This document shows, one piece after another, positions 3,749-21,541 of a stretch of 24,006 nucleotides of DNA (position 1 is its first letter; each line of letters starts with the position of its first letter). The translations under genes and the position numbers were made by a program. Origin of the DNA: a virus; IMG/VR virus record IMGVR_UViG_3300044726_000165, positions 1-24,006 of that record; one strand, written 5' to 3'. The notes beneath the pieces are model-generated. The model was not told the DNA's origin. It worked only from the letters and a program-made list of their open reading frames with translations, and did no database searches.

Positions 3749-5053
3749 GTGGGCGTGCTCGCGTCGATCCGCTCGTCGCTACGCTCGGTATTCGCTCCGA
3801 GCACGGCGGCGCCAGGCACCGGCGCCTGGGCGCCGATCGTGCGCGAGCCCTACACGGGCGCCTGGCAGAAGGACGACGAGCTCCGTCTCGAGACGGCGCT
3901 CGCGAACCCGGTCGTCTTTCGCTGCGTCTCGCTCATCGCTTCCGATATCGGGAAGCTACCGCTGCGGCTCGTCGCCGTCGATGCCAACGGGATCTGGCAC
4001 GAGACGACGAGCCCGTCGTTCTCGCCCGTGCTGCGCGTGCCGAACCGGTACCAGACGCCGGCCCAGTTCTTCGAGGCCTGGATGTTCTCGAAGCTCCTCT
4101 GGGGCAACACCTACGTCCTCAAGGATCGGGATGCGCGCGGTGTCGTGACGACGCTCGACGTCCTCGACCCGTGCCGCGTGAAGCCGCTCGTCGCGCCCGA
4201 TGGCAGCGTCTACTACGAGCTCCAGACCAACGACCTGGCGGGCCTGCCGGCCGGCACGTCGCCGCTCGTGGTCCCGGCGAAGGAGATCATCCACGACCGC
4301 TGGAACTGTGCCTTTCATCCGCTCGTGGGCCTCTCGCCGCTCTACGCCTGCGGCGGGGCGGCGCGTCAGGGCCTCGCGATGCAGGCGGCCAGTACCTCGT
4401 TCTTCTCCGCCGGTGGCCGGCCCAGCGGGATGCTGATCGCGCCGACCGAGATCGATCCGCTCACCGCCCAGCGGCTCTCGGACACCTGGCACAACCTCGG
4501 CGCCGGCAAGACCGCCATCGTCGGCAACGGCATGAAGTACGAAGCGGTCGGCGCCTCGGCGGAGGAGTCCCAGTGGATCGAGCAGGCCGGCTGGACGGCG
4601 AAAACGATCGCCGGCTGTTTCGGCGTGCCGATCTCGATGGTCGATTCGAGCCAGCAGCCGCCGTACGCGAACAATGAAGCGTCGACGCTCCAGTACCACT
4701 CGCAGTGCCTCCAGACGCATCTGACGGCCATCGAGGCCGCGCTCGATGCCGGCCTCGAGCTGCCGGCCCCGTACGGGACGGAGTTCGATCTCGACGACCT
4801 GATCTGGATGGACACGGCGACCAAGACCAAGGCCGCGCATGATGCGATCAGCGCCGGGGCCATGTCGCCCAACGAAGCGCGCCGGAAGTACTTCGGCCTG
4901 GGCCCGGTGCCCGGCGGCGACACGCCGTACCTCCAGCAGCAGTACTACTCGCTCGAATCACTCGCCATGCGGGATCTGAATGTGCCGGCGCCGGCCGCGC
5001 CCACGACGGCCCCCCCCGTCGAGGAGCCGGCGCCGGCCGAGGTCGCGCCGTGA
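3749..5053 (+). CDS. Portal protein (HK97 family)
   Basis: Forms the dodecameric ring at one capsid vertex through which DNA enters and leaves, and to which the connector attaches. The 434-residue length and the sequence fit the HK97-type portal family: FRCVSLIASDIGKLPLRL near residue 60, FFEAWMFSKLLWGNTYVLKDRD near 110, a crown/stem region with ISMVDSSQQPPYANNEAS near 300, and a proline/alanine-rich tail. It starts with GTG four bases after the capsid stop, and its own stop overlaps the GTG of the connector gene (GTGA). Gene order protease-capsid-portal differs from the classical portal-protease-capsid order. Confidence 0.93.
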   Translation: MGVLASIRSSLRSVFAPSTAAPGTGAWAPIVREPYTGAWQKDDELRLETALANPVVFRCVSLIASDIGKLPLRLVAVDANGIWHETTSPSFSPVLRVPNRYQTPAQFFEAWMFSKLLWGNTYVLKDRDARGVVTTLDVLDPCRVKPLVAPDGSVYYELQTNDLAGLPAGTSPLVVPAKEIIHDRWNCAFHPLVGLSPLYACGGAARQGLAMQAASTSFFSAGGRPSGMLIAPTEIDPLTAQRLSDTWHNLGAGKTAIVGNGMKYEAVGASAEESQWIEQAGWTAKTIAGCFGVPISMVDSSQQPPYANNEASTLQYHSQCLQTHLTAIEAALDAGLELPAPYGTEFDLDDLIWMDTATKTKAAHDAISAGAMSPNEARRKYFGLGPVPGGDTPYLQQQYYSLESLAMRDLNVPAPAAPTTAPPVEEPAPAEVAP

Positions 5054-5394
5054 CGCTCACCTACTCGCGCGTCACGCTCCCCGGTCCGCTCTGGACGGTG
5101 GCCGAAGTCAAGGCGCTCCAGTTGCGGATCACCGACGCGGCGCACGATGCGGACGTGGACGAGAAGCTCGCGACTGCGCAGGAAGCGGTGCTCGCGTACC
5201 TGGGGCCGGCGGCCGATGCGACCTGGACGCCGGCGACCGCGCCCAAGGCCGTCAAGCACGCGATCCTGCTCCTGACGGTGCACTACTACGAGCATCGCGG
5301 CGACGACCTCGGCGTGCTGCGGCCTGATGAGGCCGTCATCTGGAAGGAACTCCGGAACCTGCTCGCGATGTATCGCGATCCGGCGCTGGCGTAG
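5050..5394 (+). CDS. Head-tail connector (gp6-like adaptor)
   Basis: A 114-residue mostly helical protein of the HK97 gp6 / SPP1 gp15 adaptor type, which binds beneath the portal. Features seen are the opening WTVAEVKALQLRIT, a helix DEKLATAQEAVLAYLG and the segment PKAVKHAILLLTVHYYEHRGD, where a helix ends in the common HYYEHRG-type stretch. The GTG start overlaps the portal stop by 4 bases. The head-closure gene follows after three bases, consistent with the usual portal-adaptor-stopper order. Confidence 0.85.
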   Translation: MTLTYSRVTLPGPLWTVAEVKALQLRITDAAHDADVDEKLATAQEAVLAYLGPAADATWTPATAPKAVKHAILLLTVHYYEHRGDDLGVLRPDEAVIWKELRNLLAMYRDPALA

Positions 5395-5397
5395 CAC

Positions 5398-6600
5398 ATG
5401 GGCATCGGGGCATATCGGCATCTGGTGACGCTCGCGCATCCGGCCGTGGTGCTCGATCCACCCACGTGGTACTGCTCGTTGCAGTCGGCGGCCAGCCAGG
5501 TCATCGACGGCCAGGCGGCCTACTTCGTCCGTGGGCGCTATCATCCGGGCCTCACGCTCGAAACCCAGATCCACTTCGAGGGGCGCACGTTTCAAGTGCA
5601 GGGCGTGACGGACCTCGACGAGCGGCATGTGGACGTGCAGTTACTCTGCGTGGAAGTCGTCGGTCGTGGCACCACGCCAGGCGTCACGGCGCCGACCATC
5701 ACGACCCAGCCGCAGGACGCCACCGCCTTCTCCGGTGAGAGTGTCACGCTGACGGTCGTCGCCGCCGGCACGCCGCCCCTCGCATATCAGTGGATAAAAG
5801 CGGGGGTGGACATTGACGGCGCGACCAATGCGAGTTACAACACGGGGCCGCTCTCCTCGACGGCCAGTTACGCCGTCGTCGTCTCGAATCCCTACGGCTC
5901 GGTGACGTCGACGTCCGCGACTGTGACCGTCGAACTGAGCTATCAACAACAGATCCTGGCCGATGGCGCGGTCGCCTATTGGCCGCTCGATGATGCCGCC
6001 GGAAGCACCGAGGCGCGAGATGCCGCGGGGGCACGCACGGGCACGCTCTACGGCGCGACGAGCGGCGTGGCGGGCCTTGGGGGTGAGACGGCGGTGAGGT
6101 TTACTGGCATAAATAGCGGCCTACTGGTGCCACCCCTGCCCTCTCAATATCCGACCTACAGCTATGAGATCTGGGCACGCCCCACGGCCGCGACGGGACC
6201 CAACTACTCGCTGCTTATGCGCGGGCCGCAGTTCGCGTACGGGTTGTTCGCCTGGCAGTTAGTACGTAATCCGCAGGTGCAATATGCCCTCAATGAAGTG
6301 TCAAGCCAATCGGTCGAAAGTCCGACGCCGACGCCTCAAGCGGTCTGGAACCATCTGGCGCTGACCTTCGATGGGACCGTGCTGCGTCTGTATCTGAACG
6401 GGGTGCTGGATACGTCCGGGGCCTTCACCGCCCACCCGCAAGATGGCGGGACGTTAGGTACCGGGATCGGCTGTCGACCGGTGACGTCTGGGCCTCCCGC
6501 TGAGTTCTGCTACATGGGCGACCTGCAAGACGTGGCCATCTATGCGCGCGTGCTCACGCCAGCGGAGATCGCGGCACACTACACGCTCCGGACAAGCTAA
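5398..6600 (+). CDS. Head-closure protein with Ig-like and LamG-like extensions
   Basis: The N-terminal about 90 residues (IGAYRHLVTLAHP ... GRYHPGLTLETQIHFEGRTFQVQGVTDLDERHVDVQLLCVEV) are a stopper/head-tail joining protein that closes the connector channel. This family is normally about 100-115 residues. Here a linker leads into an Ig-like domain (about 98-179; key W132 in YQWIKAG and SYAVVVSNPYGS, without the disulfide cysteines) and then a concanavalin/LamG-like domain (about 188-396; VAYWPLDDAAGS, WNHLALTFDGTVLRLYLNGVLD, GDLQDVAIYARVLTPAEIAAHY). The extension would sit on the virion neck and could bind carbohydrate. Codons in the LamG part are visibly less GC-biased (ATA, TTA, GTA) than the neighbours, suggesting later acquisition. 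The stop overlaps the next ATG (TAATG). Confidence 0.88.
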   Translation: MGIGAYRHLVTLAHPAVVLDPPTWYCSLQSAASQVIDGQAAYFVRGRYHPGLTLETQIHFEGRTFQVQGVTDLDERHVDVQLLCVEVVGRGTTPGVTAPTITTQPQDATAFSGESVTLTVVAAGTPPLAYQWIKAGVDIDGATNASYNTGPLSSTASYAVVVSNPYGSVTSTSATVTVELSYQQQILADGAVAYWPLDDAAGSTEARDAAGARTGTLYGATSGVAGLGGETAVRFTGINSGLLVPPLPSQYPTYSYEIWARPTAATGPNYSLLMRGPQFAYGLFAWQLVRNPQVQYALNEVSSQSVESPTPTPQAVWNHLALTFDGTVLRLYLNGVLDTSGAFTAHPQDGGTLGTGIGCRPVTSGPPAEFCYMGDLQDVAIYARVLTPAEIAAHYTLRTS

Positions 6601-7019
6601 TGGCCGAGAACCAGCTACGCATCAACGGCCTCGACGATCTGCGGAAGGCGCTCAAGGCGCTCCCGCCCGAGCTCGTGCGCGAGGCCGGCGTGATTGTGCA
6701 TGCGCAGGCGGAGGCGGCGGCGCGTGAGATCGCCGGCGCCTATCCGGTCCACACCGGCAACCTGCGCAGCCATCTCCAGGTCGAGGTCGCCGGCGACGCG
6801 GTGAGCGCGACCGCGCGGGTCAAGAACACGGCCAAGCACGCCTACATTTTCGAGCAGGGCACGGGGACGCGCCGCTGGGCGAGCGGCAAGAGTACCGGGT
6901 CCATGCCGGCCGGCGGCGTGTTCATCCCGATCGCGATCCAACGGCGTCGGATCATGCTCGGCGCGCTCATCGATCTCGTTGAACGTTCTGGCCTGCACGT
7001 CAGCGGCGCATCCGTCTGA
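6600..7019 (+). CDS. HK97 gp10-like tail-completion protein
   Basis: A 139-residue protein of the HK97 gp10 / tail terminator-side family, acting at the head-proximal end of the tail. Diagnostic stretches are LDDLRKALKALPPELVREAG at the start, the helix AEAAAREIAGAYPVHTGNLRSHLQVEV with the conserved VxTGxLR motif, and AKHAYIFEQGTGTRRW, the usual A-x-x-x-E-xGT motif. The start ATG overlaps the head-closure stop by one base. It sits directly before the tail tube gene, its usual place. No separate tail terminator (gpU-like) gene is seen, so this protein may cover that role. Confidence 0.85.
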   Translation: MAENQLRINGLDDLRKALKALPPELVREAGVIVHAQAEAAAREIAGAYPVHTGNLRSHLQVEVAGDAVSATARVKNTAKHAYIFEQGTGTRRWASGKSTGSMPAGGVFIPIAIQRRRIMLGALIDLVERSGLHVSGASV

Positions 7020-16503: not shown

Positions 16504-17025
16504 TCAAGATTTCTTCTTGAGCTGTGGCGCGACGATGGGGAGCGTCGGCGCCTGGGTCGCGGGCGATTGGCCGTCGTTATTGAGCGAGGCCAGCATCGTT
16601 TCCACGAGGGCGATCTGCGACTCATCGAGGCGGATCAGGGCGCCCAAGATGAGGGCGATGTGTTCCCGTTGGTCTTCTGACAAGTCAGCCGTGAATAACG
16701 CCTTGATGGCGTGTTTGACTTCCGCCCCCGCGTGATGAAAGCGCTGCGCGAGCCGCAAGTCCTCTTGCAATAAATCCTTCAAGAGCGGATCGGGGGTCTG
16801 GCCCGCCTCCGCATCATCGGCGAGGAGTTGATCCAGGGTCAGATCCATCGCCACGGCGATCCGTGCCACCTGCTTCTCTCTCGTGTGGCGCATGCCCGTC
16901 TCGAAACCTTGGAGACAGCCCACCGAAATCCCGGCGTTGGCCGCGAATTGGACTTGACTCATGGCGCCATGCTCCCGGCGCCATGCGATCACGCGTGCGG
17001 CCGCCTGGTGATAGCGCCGATACAT
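16504..17025 (-). CDS. XRE-family repressor (CI-like)
   Basis: Likely the lysogeny repressor, transcribed divergently from the early operon. From ATG 17025 it has 173 residues. An XRE helix-turn-helix occupies about 20-65 (SQVQFAANAGISVGCLQGFETGMRHTREKQVARIAVAMDLTLDQLLAD). A helical C-terminal part follows (LLKDLLQEDLRLAQRFHHAG ... SEDQREHIALILGALIRLDESQIALVETMLASL) that probably oligomerises; there is no LexA-type serine/lysine peptidase, so RecA-driven self-cleavage is not expected. A GTG at 17088 would add 21 residues and lies about where its own transcript might begin. The start is therefore uncertain. Confidence 0.8.
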   Translation of the reverse strand: MYRRYHQAAARVIAWRREHGAMSQVQFAANAGISVGCLQGFETGMRHTREKQVARIAVAMDLTLDQLLADDAEAGQTPDPLLKDLLQEDLRLAQRFHHAGAEVKHAIKALFTADLSEDQREHIALILGALIRLDESQIALVETMLASLNNDGQSPATQAPTLPIVAPQLKKKS

Positions 17026-17110
17026 CGCCTCATTGTCTGTGTCGTTCACGGCACGGTCAACGATCAGAAGGGGGTGGGTCCCGAGCACGATAGCAAGCGT
17101 AAATTAACTG

Positions 17111-17126
17111 GTTGACACAAGTCAAC
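17111..17126 (+). promoter_or_regulatory. Operator palindrome GTTGAC-N4-GTCAAC
   Basis: A perfect 6-bp inverted repeat with a 4-bp spacer overlaps the -35 box of the early promoter and contains an oppositely oriented TTGACT that could serve the repressor promoter. Related half-sites are GTTAAC at 17150-17155 and GTCAAC at 17056-17061. A dimeric XRE protein bound here would block the early promoter. Confidence 0.7.
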
Positions 17127-17139
17127 TTAGTTGTATATT
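17112..17139 (+). promoter_or_regulatory. Early rightward promoter
   Basis: TTGACA (17112-17117), a 16-bp spacer and TATATT (17134-17139) form a near-consensus sigma-70 promoter in an AT-rich island within GC-rich DNA. Transcription would begin near 17146, leaving only about 11 bases before the ATG of the Cro-like gene and no Shine-Dalgarno sequence. Confidence 0.75.
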
Positions 17140-17156
17140 GTGTCGAAAAGTTAACT

Positions 17157-17384
17157 ATGTTCCTCAAATTGGCGCGCAAAGTCGCCGGGCTCACCCAGGG
17201 CGAGCTCGCCAAACAGGCGGGCGTCACCAAGTCATTTATTTCGCTGCTCGAGAGCGGCAAGCGCGACATCCGGTCCGTGGGCTACGAAACGGTCGCGCGC
17301 ATTGCCGAGGCGCTCGGCGTGAGCCCGCAGGAGTTGTTCCCGCTGGACATCCGGAAATCTCAGCGCACGAAGAGGCCAGCATGA
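17157..17384 (+). CDS. Cro-like XRE transcription regulator
   Basis: A 75-residue single-domain helix-turn-helix protein and first gene of the early operon. The motif LARKVAGLTQGELAKQAGVTKSFISLLESGKRDIRSVGYETVARIAEALGVSPQELFPLD is a textbook XRE domain (residues about 4-60), with a short basic tail. ATG 17157 is chosen: the alternative TTG at 17112 coincides with the -35 box. It probably binds the same operator as the divergent repressor and controls the lysis-lysogeny switch. The stop overlaps the next ATG (ATGA). Confidence 0.85.
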   Translation: MFLKLARKVAGLTQGELAKQAGVTKSFISLLESGKRDIRSVGYETVARIAEALGVSPQELFPLDIRKSQRTKRPA

Positions 17385-17593
17385 TGTCGCCCAGTCCCTA
17401 TCTCACCGCCCATGAAGCCATGGCGTACCTCCGGCTCGGCTCGCTGAACATGCTGTACCGCCTCGTGAAGCAACACCACTTACCGTTCTGCCGCCGCGGG
17501 CGCCTGTACCTCTTCGATCAGCGCGAGATCGATGTCTGGCTGCACGGCTTCAACAGTGAGATTGAGTTCCATCGCGCGCGGCGCCGCGCGTGA
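17381..17593 (+). CDS. Excisionase-family HTH protein
   Basis: A 70-residue protein with a MerR/AlpA-like helix-turn-helix (HTH_17 type): YLTAHEAMAYLRLGSLNMLYRLVKQHHLPFCRRGRLYLFDQREIDVWLHG. This family includes phage recombination directionality factors and small transcription activators. ATG 17381 overlaps the Cro-like stop by four bases. Because it is separated from the integrase and expressed with early genes, it is a candidate excision factor; a role as early activator is equally possible. Confidence 0.8.
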   Translation: MMSPSPYLTAHEAMAYLRLGSLNMLYRLVKQHHLPFCRRGRLYLFDQREIDVWLHGFNSEIEFHRARRRA

Positions 17594-17627
17594 GCGCCGG
17601 CGCCTGGGCAGCAGGAGGAGGGGGAGG

Positions 17628-17894
17628 ATGGTGAAGCGTAGGACACGTGGCGGCGATCGGGTGGTCAATCAGCGCAGCGGCGAGGTGGACACGGCCTCGG
17701 AGTATCTCGAGAATCTGCGCGCGCTCGAACGTGCGGTGCAGCGGCTCGACGATGATCTCGCGGTGCTGCACGCGGACCTGAAGGCCGCGAGGGAAGCCCG
17801 AGAAAAGGCCGTCGCGCAGATACGGGCGGCCATCCGCGAAGGGGCGGTCTTGCCGCTGCTCGAGCTCGGCGACGAGACGCGGTTGAAGGCGTGA
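17628..17894 (+). CDS. Coiled-coil hypothetical protein
   Basis: An 88-residue protein with a basic N-terminus (MVKRRTRGGDRVVNQRSGEV) followed by a long heptad-like helix (SEYLENLRALERAVQRLDDDLAVLHADLKAAREAREKAVAQIRAAIREG) and a short acidic tail. ATG 17628 is chosen because AGGAGG (17613-17618) lies nine bases upstream in a purine-rich stretch; an upstream frame opening at 17532 overlaps the HTH gene. Likely dimeric. The function is unknown; being just before the replication initiator, it may act in early regulation or replication. Confidence 0.7.
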   Translation: MVKRRTRGGDRVVNQRSGEVDTASEYLENLRALERAVQRLDDDLAVLHADLKAAREAREKAVAQIRAAIREGAVLPLLELGDETRLKA

Positions 17895-17898
17895 TCCG

Positions 17899-18603
17899 AT
17901 GTGGGTGAAAGTCGACGACGGCTTCGTGGAACATCCCAAAGTGACGGCCGCCGCGGGTCATCTCGGCCCGAATAGCGTGGGACGGGTCGTCGCGGTGTGG
18001 CTCGAGGCGATCTGCTACGCGGCCCGGAATCTCACCGACGGGCTCGTGCCGCTGGCGGTCGCGCGCCGGTTCTTTACCGATCGGCGTCCACTGGAGGTGC
18101 TCGACGTGATGGCGCTCCCCGACGTTCGGTTGATGACGAAGACGGAGGCCGGGTACCGGTTTCACGACTTCGATCACTATCAACCCTCCGCGGCGTCGAT
18201 CAAGGCTAAGCGCCACCGCGATCGGGCGCGCAAATTCCACGCGGATTCCACGCGGAATCCAGACGGAATCCAGACGGAATCCACGCGGAATCGCGGCGGA
18301 ATCCACGCGGATTCCGCGCGGAATCCAGAGCGCTCGCGCGCGCGCGATCCCGTCCCGTCCCCAAGATCAAGAAAGAAAGAGCAGTGCGCTGACGCGCACG
18401 CCGCGTGTGCGCGTGTGCTCGTCAAACTCGCCCACCAGGTGCTCGACCGGCTGAGCGACGACGCAGACGCCCCACCCATGAGCGAACTCTGCGCCACGTT
18501 GAAAGACCTGGCGGCCGTGCACAAGGTCCCGTACGCCACCGGGCGGGACGTCACCAAGGCGATGGACTCGGCCCTCGCCCAACGACACGGGCGGGTCTCG
18601 TGA
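17899..18603 (+). CDS. Phage replication initiator (O-like)
   Basis: A 234-residue protein. The N-terminal domain (about 1-95: WVKVDDGFVEHPKVTAAAG ... VWLEAICYAARNLTDGLVPLAVARRFF ... YRFHDFDHYQPS) is the winged-helix-like start common to phage replication proteins. A basic hinge (KAKRHRDRARK) leads to three 11-residue repeats (114-146: HADSTRNPDGI, QTESTRNRGGI, HADSARNPERS), then a basic linker and a helical C-terminal part (ARVLVKLAHQVLDRLSDD ... ATGRDVTKAMDSALAQRHG). The DNA under the repeats is an array of 11-bp iterons, so the gene probably contains its own origin. No helicase or polymerase is encoded nearby; host DnaB would be recruited. Confidence 0.8.
   Translation: MWVKVDDGFVEHPKVTAAAGHLGPNSVGRVVAVWLEAICYAARNLTDGLVPLAVARRFFTDRRPLEVLDVMALPDVRLMTKTEAGYRFHDFDHYQPSAASIKAKRHRDRARKFHADSTRNPDGIQTESTRNRGGIHADSARNPERSRARDPVPSPRSRKKEQCADAHAACARVLVKLAHQVLDRLSDDADAPPMSELCATLKDLAAVHKVPYATGRDVTKAMDSALAQRHGRVS
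18233..18331 (+). repeat. Nine 11-bp iterons: probable replication origin
   Basis: Nine head-to-tail 11-bp units (consensus GAATCCACGCG; variants GATTCCACGCG, GAATCCAGACG, GAATCGCGGCG, GATTCCGCGCG) run without gaps inside the replication initiator gene. The period is close to one DNA turn, placing sites on one face. A purine-rich, AT-richer run follows at 18362-18383. This is the layout of lambda ori inside gene O. Confidence 0.75.
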
Positions 18604-18959
18604 TGGCGGCCACCTGGACGCTCGCCCGGATCGAGACGCTGTGCGGCTGCTGCGGCGATGACCAGCACGGCCCGACCAGGATTCCCGCAGGCGCGCTCGT
18701 GCTCGAGCTGCGCCTACCAGGCGTCTCGCGGCCGAAGTACCGCTGCCAGGTGTGCGGTAAACACTACCGGCCGTTTACCGACGCGGACCTGCGGCAACTG
18801 CCGGCGCCGCCCATTGAAAGCCCCGCGCCGCGGGTGGCCGCGCCGGTGCGCCGGCTGCGCCTGGTCCGCGCGCCGCAGTCCTGGGCCTCGCTCGCCGAGT
18901 CCACCACGGGGCTCTTCGACCACGCGAAAGCGGCCGCCGGCGATCGGGAGGAGACATGA
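18603..18959 (+). CDS. Zn-ribbon-like hypothetical protein
   Basis: A 118-residue protein whose ATG overlaps the initiator stop by one base (TGATG). Cysteines occur as ETLCGCCGDD near residue 14 and as YRCQVCGKHYR near 48-51, giving a probable zinc ribbon. The C-terminal half is proline/alanine/arginine-rich and probably flexible, ending in a short helix SLAESTTGLFDHAKAAAG. The function is not known; similar small zinc-binding proteins are frequent in phage early operons. Its last codons overlap the PEP-CTERM gene. Confidence 0.7.
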   Translation: MAATWTLARIETLCGCCGDDQHGPTRIPAGALVLELRLPGVSRPKYRCQVCGKHYRPFTDADLRQLPAPPIESPAPRVAAPVRRLRLVRAPQSWASLAESTTGLFDHAKAAAGDREET

Positions 18960-19705
18960 AAACACTCGGGTTCACGCTCATCGTCATCGGCCTGGCCGCC
19001 CACGCGGAGGCATCGGCTTTGCTCAATTTTCGCTCTGGCGCGGCCGCGGTGCTGTGCGATACCCGCGTCGCCTTCTCGGCGGTCAACTGCGGCGCCGGCT
19101 TCACCGTCGTCGGCGACACGATCGGGTACGTCGGCCCGATCGGCGGCTGGTCGATCGACACCCTGGCTATTACTTCAAGTAACACACCGGGAATCACGCC
19201 GATCGGGAAGATCAATCTCGGCCTGGCGGATCTGCGTCACCTGAGCGGGACGGACGATCTGACGGTGGACTTCGGCCACGACTTCTTCGCCGCCCCGACG
19301 GGAAGTGATCGGGTGTTGACGTCCACCGGGGCGGCCGCGTACGACACCGCGGCGGGCGGGGACGCCTCCTCCCTGACCGGGTATGCGCGGACCGCGAACG
19401 ACATGGGCCTGGCCGCGCCGACGGCGGCCACGGCGCTGGACGTGCTCACGCTCACGCCCGGCTGTTTCCCGGCGGCCGGCTTCACGAAGAGCTGCGCGAT
19501 GGTGTCGCCTGAAGTGCCGTTTACGAACGTTGGCCCGTTCTACTCGCTGGCTGCGCGCGTCGAGATCCACCAACACACGAGCGCGACCGACCAGGTGAGC
19601 TACCTCGAGAAAGCCGCGGTCCAGCCCGTGCCGGAACCGGGAACGTGGCTCTTGATCGGGACGGGGCTGCTCCTCATGGGAATGCGCAAAAAGGTAAGCA
19701 GATGA
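18956..19705 (+). CDS. PEP-CTERM exported surface protein
   Basis: A 249-residue secreted protein. It has an N-terminal signal peptide ([21 protein letters not shown]) and a complete PEP-CTERM tail: VPEPGT at 225-230, a hydrophobic span [13 protein letters not shown] and a basic end RKKVSR. Exosortase (EpsH/Xrt) recognises such tails and processes the protein for the cell surface or extracellular matrix. The middle is beta-rich ([20 protein letters not shown] ... [20 protein letters not shown]), a pattern I recall from chromosomal PEP-CTERM proteins. Four cysteines (34, 45, 170, 180) could pair in the periplasm. ATG 18956 follows GGGAGGAG and overlaps the upstream stop (ATGA); its own stop overlaps the recombinase ATG (ATGA). 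Role inferred: it alters the lysogen or infected-cell surface. Confidence 0.85.
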
Positions 19706-20574
19706 CACCGAACCTTGCCACCGTGCCGCAGGCGCTCGCGCTCTCGCCCGCCCTCTACACGCGCGACCAGATCGAGCTCATCAAGCGCCAGGTCGCCGTC
19801 GGCGTCACCGACGACGAGCTGAAGCTCTTTCTCTACCAGTGCCAGCGGACCGGCCTCGACGCGCTCACGCGCCAGATCTACGCCATCAAGCGGGGCGGGA
19901 AGCTCACCATCCAGACCGCGATCGATGGCTTCCGGCTCATCGCGCAACGGACCGGCGAGTATCGCGGCCAGGTGGGGCCGTTCTGGTGCGGGGAGTCGGG
20001 CGCCTGGGCGGACGTCTGGCTCTCGAGCGAACCGCCGGTGGCGGCCAAGATCGGTGTGTGGCGGCAAAACTTCGCCGAGCCAGTCTGGGGCGTGGCACGC
20101 ACCGACGCCTACGCCGCCCGGAACGACCGCGGCCAATTCGCCGGCCTCTGGCGCACGATGGCCGACACGATGATCGCGAAGTGTGCCGAGGCGCTCGCCT
20201 TGCGGAAGGCGTTCCCGCACGAGCTCAGCGGCGTCTACACCGGTGACGAGATGGCCCAGAGCGCCGGCGATGTCGATCAGGCCACCGGCGAGATCGTCGC
20301 CGACACGACGCCGGCGGTCGCGCGTCCCGAGACGATTGAGGTCAAGATCCTCGGCATCGTCAAGCGCCAGGTGAAGGACGGCCTCCAGAAGTTTGTCATC
20401 ACCGCGGACAATCAGCAGACGTACCACACGTTCTCGCTGACGCACGCGACGACGGCGAAAGACGCGCAGGCGGCCGGCCTGCCCGTCGAGATCACCTACC
20501 TCGACACGAAGTACGGCCGGTCGATTCAACACCTGCGCGAGCGCGACGATCCGCGCCCGGAGCCACCGCTCTAA
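19702..20574 (+). CDS. bet: Phage recombination protein Bet (RecT family)
   Basis: A 290-residue single-strand annealing recombinase of the Bet/RecT type, which pairs complementary strands during phage recombination and replication. Matches to the family pattern are [77 protein letters not shown] and [30 protein letters not shown]. The C-terminal about 80 residues are a variable domain ([32 protein letters not shown]). The ATG at 19702 overlaps the PEP-CTERM stop. The usual partner exonuclease (Exo/YqaJ type) and SSB are not seen in the window. Confidence 0.93.
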
Positions 20575-20585
20575 AGGGGAACCCC

Positions 20586-20999
20586 ATGCGATCGTGTCTT
20601 GTCGTCCTCGTCGCGCTCCTCTTCGCCGGTTGCCGGCCGGTCCAGATCGTCAACAATCTCCCGACGCAGCCCTCGACGACGCCGGCGGCGCCGGCCGTCG
20701 TGAAACATACGATCCAGTTCCGCGTCCTCGGGAACGCCTCGAGTGCCCGGGTCCGGTACTCGACGCCGGTCGATGGGCTCGGGCAAGTCGTGACGTCGCT
20801 CCCGTACTTCAACACGTTCACGGTTGCCGGCGAGTCGCTCTTCCTCTCGCTCGAAGCGACGCCGATCGGGTACGGCTATGGCGTGCTGTACCCGTTCCTG
20901 TCGGTGCAAATCGCCGTCGACAATACGGTCTTTCGTGAAGCAACGACGCAGGATTTCCTGCTGGCGCCGTTGTCGACCAGCGGGCAGTGGCGGCAATGA
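20586..20999 (+). CDS. MmpS-like lipoprotein
   Basis: A 137-residue predicted lipoprotein. A signal sequence ends in a lipobox FAGC (residues 13-16, lipid on C16). A proline/threonine-rich linker follows, and then an Ig-like beta domain (KHTIQFRVLGNASSARVRYSTPVDGLGQVVTSLPYFNTFTVAGESLFLSLEA ... VQIAVDNTVFREATTQDF) that resembles MmpS-type domains. AAAGGGGA precedes the ATG. It would sit in the cell envelope facing the periplasm or surface. Phage lipoproteins of this kind sometimes block superinfection, but no direct evidence exists here. Its stop overlaps the next ATG (ATGA). Confidence 0.75.
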   Translation: MRSCLVVLVALLFAGCRPVQIVNNLPTQPSTTPAAPAVVKHTIQFRVLGNASSARVRYSTPVDGLGQVVTSLPYFNTFTVAGESLFLSLEATPIGYGYGVLYPFLSVQIAVDNTVFREATTQDFLLAPLSTSGQWRQ

Positions 21000-21235
21000 C
21001 GGGGCCGATCCTTCCGCCTCCGATCCCGTCGTTCCTGCTTGACGATGTACGCGAGGCCGCGCAGTACCTCGAGGAGCTCGGCGAGGCGCCCGACACGCGC
21101 GTCCGCGATATCCACATGGCCCACAAACATTCGCGCCGGCTGTGGTCCGCCGCCCAGGCCGTCGAGCGGCTGCTCTTCGCCGTGGAGCAGATGAAGGGCG
21201 AGCGCCCGCGCCGGACGGGCAACGGCAATACCTGA
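20996..21235 (+). CDS. Small helical hypothetical protein
   Basis: A 79-residue protein starting at ATG 20996, which overlaps the lipoprotein stop by four bases; a GTG three codons upstream is possible. It has a proline-rich start (TGPILPPPIPSF) and two helices (LLDDVREAAQYLEELGE and SRRLWSAAQAVERLLFAVEQMKG). No signal peptide or metal site is seen. Not recognised. Confidence 0.65.
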   Translation: MTGPILPPPIPSFLLDDVREAAQYLEELGEAPDTRVRDIHMAHKHSRRLWSAAQAVERLLFAVEQMKGERPRRTGNGNT

Positions 21236-21265
21236 ACTATTCATCGACTGCATAAGGAGAGACCC

Positions 21266-21541
21266 ATGGCCGAACCTACCGAAGAGATCGACGTCCAGAC
21301 GACGCTCGACACCTGGCTCGCGGAGCACACCGACGTCCAGCAGTACGTGATGAAGCTGTACTACGTGCCTGACGGCGCGGAGATTCCGCTCCCCGTGACG
21401 CACATGGTCCGGTGCACGGCCGTCGACGAGCCCCAGCTCGAGCTGCGCGTGGGCGTCGTCGCCACGCCGAACACGGCCGCGGTCGCGAACGTCATCCTGC
21501 GGATGATCGAACACGCCGCCGGAGACCCGAAAGTGATGTGA
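21266..21541 (+). CDS. Hypothetical protein
   Basis: A 91-residue acidic protein with a clear ribosome site AAGGAGAG ahead of ATG 21266. It reads EEIDVQTTLDTWLAEHTDVQQYVMKLYYVPDGAEIPLPVTHMVRCTAVDEPQLELRVGVVATPNTAAVANVILRMIEHAAG, suggesting a small alpha/beta fold. The 30-bp gap before it is the widest between 17628 and 22673 apart from the 34-bp gap at 17594-17627. No family recognised. Confidence 0.65.
   Translation: MAEPTEEIDVQTTLDTWLAEHTDVQQYVMKLYYVPDGAEIPLPVTHMVRCTAVDEPQLELRVGVVATPNTAAVANVILRMIEHAAGDPKVM

Follow-up and report, generated by a model that had tools for sequence, protein, structure and literature searches.

A PEP-CTERM protein gene in a variable slot of the early operon of a temperate phage, and its relatives in other viral contigs

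Few roles are known for exosortase and its many substrates. A PEP-CTERM protein is defined by a PEP motif, a helix and a basic end, as a rule accompanied by a signal peptide; in the model, EpsH cuts it at the periplasmic face (PMC1569441). The phage protein described here has a predicted signal peptide, VPEP, hydrophobic helix and basic C-terminal end like the substrates of the exosortase (EpsH/Xrt) system and, as is usual there (PMC1569441), an ectodomain of no known family. However, the known PEP-CTERM proteins were described from cellular genomes, usually many in each, whereas this one is encoded in the early operon of a temperate phage and its gene is mobile among phages. PepA, a host PEP-CTERM protein, moves exopolysaccharide from the soluble to the bound form and restores flocs (PMC9850573). 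The tail is common to PepA (NF033554) and the phage family, and a weak match of one phage homologue reaches the PepA ectodomain, but at 17–27 bits against a cut-off of 80 the phage family is not a member.

Phage-made envelope proteins provide the other comparison. T5 Llp, a lipoprotein termed a 'lytic conversion protein', blocks the phage's own receptor (PMC9586334), and Ltp of TP-J34, cited here as an analogue, is a superinfection exclusion lipoprotein (PMC3952083). The Llp and Cor-type exclusion lipoproteins change the host surface, as is proposed below for the phage PEP-CTERM protein, but they are small and take the lipoprotein route, whereas the latter carries an exosortase tag on an ectodomain of 200 aa. 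SasX, an LPXTG protein of an SPbeta-like prophage, is also a phage-encoded substrate of a host surface-sorting enzyme, though there it is a matter of Gram-positive cell-wall anchoring and a prophage accessory gene, while here the gene is probably an early lytic one; no sequence relation is claimed. Has a phage PEP-CTERM protein been described already? Judged by titles, abstracts and word counts, no such description was found in the literature searched, where a paper with both terms in it reported expression of a bacterium's own PEP-CTERM gene; the tag is known, and its repeated use by phages appears not to be described in those sources.

The window, i.e., the whole stretch of DNA analysed, is 24,006 nt long and is the entire IMG/VR record IMGVR_UViG_3300044726_000165. 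Genes for terminase, integrase, HTH and replication-initiation proteins (PHROG / Pfam), together with further structural genes common to relatives, make the setting that of a temperate phage. With its two ends joined, the record has the terminase gene of its start following its last gene at about the spacing of the relative L004, and is thus a nearly complete genome. No attachment-site trace (tRNA or T-arm) was found for the phage. The features of concern are as follows.

16504–17088, minus strand: divergent HTH protein, probably the lysogeny repressor (HTH-like sequence by eye, divergent position; homologues 79–89% in L004, L007, L009 and L010)
17112–17139, plus strand: promoter-like site heading the rightward operon (TTGACA-16-TATATT, 11/12; consensus match only)
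17899–18603, plus strand: replication initiation protein, upstream in the same operon (phrog_2447, 3.4e-24)
18603–18959, plus strand: 118-aa CxxC protein, lineage-specific, left border of the variable slot (80–89% conserved in L002, L004, L005 and L007–L010)
18956–19705, plus strand: PEP-CTERM protein gene, family A, 249 aa (TIGR02595 and PF07589 above curated cut-offs; four phage homologues)
18956–19012, plus strand: signal-peptide-like N-terminus, residues 1–19 (by eye and hydropathy; N-terminal K, hydrophobic core, AEA/ASA before the mature part)
19625–19702, plus strand: PEP-CTERM sorting tail of VPEP motif, hydrophobic span and RKK (PF07589 match at 19625–19693 in a genome scan; residues 224–246 by hmmscan)
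19702–20574, plus strand: RecT/Bet single-strand annealing protein, bounding the slot on the right (PF03837, 1.9e-31; phrog_2780, 5e-65)
20586–20999, plus strand: small lipoprotein, lipobox LFAGC (56–84% identity across nearly all close relatives and L100–L102)

An initial annotation had taken the 249-aa product to be a PEP-CTERM protein with a signal peptide and a full tail and had suggested a comparison with profiles; the tail is borne out by this comparison and the N-terminus by hydropathy. TIGR02595 matches residues 225–246 with 22.8 bits (cut-off 16) and PF07589 residues 224–246 with 24.7 bits (cut-off 20.7); the PEP motif, hydrophobic helix and basic cluster are at the extreme C-terminus and the tail runs to the stop codon. 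A hydropathy scan has one strongly hydrophobic 17-mer region (residues 1–25) besides the milder C-terminal span, and on hydropathy a signal peptide is predicted, with no further membrane span before the tail. The collections of named PEP-CTERM families, against which a comparison had also been suggested, gave only scores below their full-length cut-offs, the best being NF038129 (32.4 bits against 65), with PepA at 17.2 against 80. The protein has no PHROG match and no lipobox. Structure prediction from five family A sequences gave a mean pLDDT of 30 and no usable fold, and as there is neither a predicted fold nor a known ectodomain family, nothing points to a particular target. The GC content of the gene (0.665) and its GC3 (0.85) are like those of the neighbouring phage genes, so that it did not come in very recently from a genome of other composition.

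At both of its ends the gene is joined by ATGA to a neighbour within the early operon, at 18956–18959 to the 118-aa gene and at 19702–19705 to bet, and the gene that follows is indeed that for RecT/Bet, as initially annotated. Within 16900–21300 the site at 17112, divergent from the probable repressor gene, is the only strong promoter-like site on the plus strand, and a consensus scan of that strand found none between 17714 and the PEP-CTERM gene. Given the overlaps and this consensus promoter layout, the PEP-CTERM protein is likely made early in the lytic programme. The replication-initiation gene upstream has, at 18239–18330, GGAATCCACGCGGAATCC-type repeat units in a repetitive N/R/G-rich stretch. 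Neither the 118-aa protein nor the small lipoprotein encoded after bet has a PHROG or Pfam family. The lipoprotein is a core envelope protein of the lineage and a possible functional partner of the PEP-CTERM protein; perhaps it is itself the real exclusion factor.

The joins to both neighbours had been taken to mean that this is 'not a loose cargo gene', and here the initial annotation does not stand. Bet as query gave 80 viral loci among the matches listed, with identity of at least 80% in nine (L002–L010), of which the longer ones share much gene order with the window. Four of these close relatives have nothing in the slot before bet, the 118-aa gene overlapping bet by ATGA in L007 and L009 and ending a few bases before it in L004 and L010; in three others (L002, L005, L008) other ORFs fill it, and L006 has a different gene before bet. 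(The ORFs between the 118-aa gene and bet in L002, at 4408–4757, are of low complexity, MAGHGGAWLAAAWWGRARRGKARRG....) With the slot empty or otherwise filled in relatives, the PEP-CTERM gene of the window is an insertion in a variable slot, one which left both neighbouring genes unbroken. Judged by this comparison of gene order, the gene is accessory, and the translational coupling is a feature of one insertion and not of the PEP-CTERM gene. When the window and the 80 Bet-related records were scanned with PF07589, three were above cut-off (the window, L004 and L010), all within the closest ten-record cluster, and the gene is absent from most Bet-related phages.

A look at related phages had been proposed at the outset, and it led to the same gene in four other viral contigs, possibly fragments (L010, L100, L101 and L102; 68–72% identical), at another site of the early region, which is further evidence against the gene being tied to its present neighbours. 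A viral scan with P0001 alone gave nothing, its peptide patterns being too specific, and the homologues came via synteny and the PF07589 scan; L100, L101 and L102 were found by a viral scan with a two-sequence alignment, to which repeat scans added none. The L010 homologue, 68% identical over the length of the window protein, sits downstream of bet and the lipoprotein gene. In L100–L102 the replication region is a different one, the structural genes compared match poorly (25–43%) and no bet match was found within the stretches examined, but a cassette in which the lipoprotein gene is followed by the PEP-CTERM gene and then by small genes is shared. Isolated phages have no relative of family A or of family B described below, the one family A match at E = 4 being noise, and neither 396 Acidobacteriota genomes nor 248 genomes of the class of G486 contained a cellular homologue of family A at full length.

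The family A gene is under purifying selection. Pairwise dN/dS (Nei-Gojobori, five genes) is about 0.23–0.33 for the whole gene and 0.12–0.28 for the ectodomain; the tail is more relaxed, at 0.28–0.78, with the motif kept. All five tails are above the PF07589 cut-off, the four homologues at 22.4–31.4 bits, and the alignment has invariant cysteines at positions 34, 45, 170 and 180, which would fit a protein folded outside the cytoplasm. The occurrence of selected homologues with intact tails in four more phage contigs means that this is a real, selected phage gene, the product neither of chance nor of chimerism. L101 and L102 are 92–100% identical in most of the ectodomain and 75% in the last window compared, that of the tail; the L102 tail is closer to that of L010 than is the region just before it, and the downstream gene is also common to L010 and L102. 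This is best read as recombination at the tail in two of the five genes, by which the tail would have been swapped and yet remained functional in form.

The tail is not confined to this family. L004, of the same lineage, encodes a family B protein whose ectodomain is unrelated to that of family A; family B also occurs in the related fragments L121 and L123, the latter of which breaks off short of its tail, and again in L168, from a 64.7-kb record whose phage-like gene content is different; there (4592–6672) the gene is directly downstream of a glycosidase-like ORF. Over columns 97–222 the family B ectodomain resembles Acidobacteriota proteins in part (E 2.6e-8). A third family, C, is in L133–L137, which are almost the same sequence throughout, with a weak match to terminase adjoining. 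The viral record L130 (3522–4376) has a PEP-CTERM protein that belongs to yet another family; a proline-rich stretch precedes its tail, and it scores 29.2 bits to PF07589. A DNA pattern scan of viral contigs for VPEPGTLLL found 18 stretches, more than half of them antisense or in chance frames. As the ectodomains of families A, B and C are unrelated and their tails of the same kind, the tail is what the proteins share, and viruses seem to use the exosortase sorting route repeatedly, whether through the same gene or through other tagged proteins in relatives.

Whose exosortase would be used? It had been claimed initially that the phage encodes none, and a profile search agrees, there being no exosortase match in the window record or in 13 other phage records. 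PF09721 (exosortase) matches in 46 of 149 sampled Acidobacteriota genomes, about half of the matches being full length and strong. The closest terminase in any genome searched, at 55%, is in G110, an exosortase-bearing Acidobacteriota genome; elsewhere, isolated phages reach 47% at best, and the class of G486 (248 genomes) 37%. A genome scan with Bet gave matches of 45–62% only, spread over several phyla. From the G110 terminase and the occurrence of exosortase an acidobacterial host is plausible, no more.

What we propose is that, after infection or induction, the PEP-CTERM protein would be made from the rightward early operon and exported by its signal peptide, with the C-terminal helix holding it in the inner membrane until the host exosortase recognises VPEP and the protein is passed to the outer surface or the extracellular polymer. 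From what is known of the family, processing by the host exosortase is likely. The surface of the infected cell would then most likely be changed, for instance such that adsorption of further or released phage is blocked, or such that the polysaccharide matrix is altered. It is the early timing and the conserved lipoprotein near bet that lead to the likeness drawn to Llp and Ltp. Taken as a whole, lytic conversion by an early-made envelope protein that uses the host sorting route, and probably alters adsorption or the matrix, falls just short of an even chance; that the benefit to the phage is adsorption control or exclusion is by analogy a tentative suggestion, which we would nonetheless place first, with a matrix effect second.

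A matrix effect could also be the whole point, with the surface protein binding exopolysaccharide so that infected or lysogenic cells are held in flocs, or the permeability of the matrix is changed, and progeny are helped to find hosts, exclusion being beside the point. PepA shows what such a protein can do, and residues 122–253 of the L010 homologue match its model with 27.4 bits; that score is far under the cut-off of 80, however, and early lytic timing leaves little time for matrix building, so we consider this unlikely. Slightly less likely again is expression mainly from the prophage as a lysogenic conversion moron that helps the lysogen, for instance in attachment or phage resistance. 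The phage is temperate, with an integrase and HTH regulators, prophage-encoded surface proteins such as SasX exist (PMC10232760), and the gene is accessory and mobile, all of which would suit a moron; a position in the rightward operon, opposite the probable repressor and overlapping replication genes, with no promoter-like site of its own found, would not.

That the gene is a passenger captured from a host's genome, of no benefit to the phage and caught before its loss, is disfavoured as improbable. Some bacterial genomes encode PEP-CTERM proteins in large numbers (PMC1569441) and the family B ectodomain is partly like Acidobacteriota proteins, but the five phage copies have the low dN/dS given above and all tails intact, base composition is phage-like and the cellular genomes searched lack a full-length family A homologue. 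An assembly chimera at 18956–19705 we reject as most improbable: beyond the absence of the gene at the same site in relatives no support for it was found, both ATGA joins keep the neighbours intact, and of the four other viral contigs with homologues three differ in the replication region and match poorly in their structural genes. Neither a profile mismatch nor a chimera, two of the three grounds on which the initial annotation was to be abandoned, was found; the third would be a host lineage that lacks any exosortase.

To return to lytic conversion through the host sorting route, a wider but doubtful extension is that this group of temperate phages keeps an accessory early 'surface-protein' position with changing cargo sorted by the host exosortase, the tail being swapped through recombination to fit the exosortase of whichever host the phage is in. 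If true, viruses would be described as users of the exosortase route for the first time, and the strategy would be a general one among phages of exosortase-bearing bacteria. That phages repeatedly carry and preserve an exosortase substrate suggests that the route leads somewhere important for phage-host contact, and the phage protein is a small, testable one with which to ask what exosortase sorting does at the surface.

Elsewhere in the window, the protein encoded at 5398–6600 is head-completion-like at its N-terminus, after which come Ig and LamG_3 domains; in most relatives just its first quarter is shared, and its lectin-like part is thus variable.
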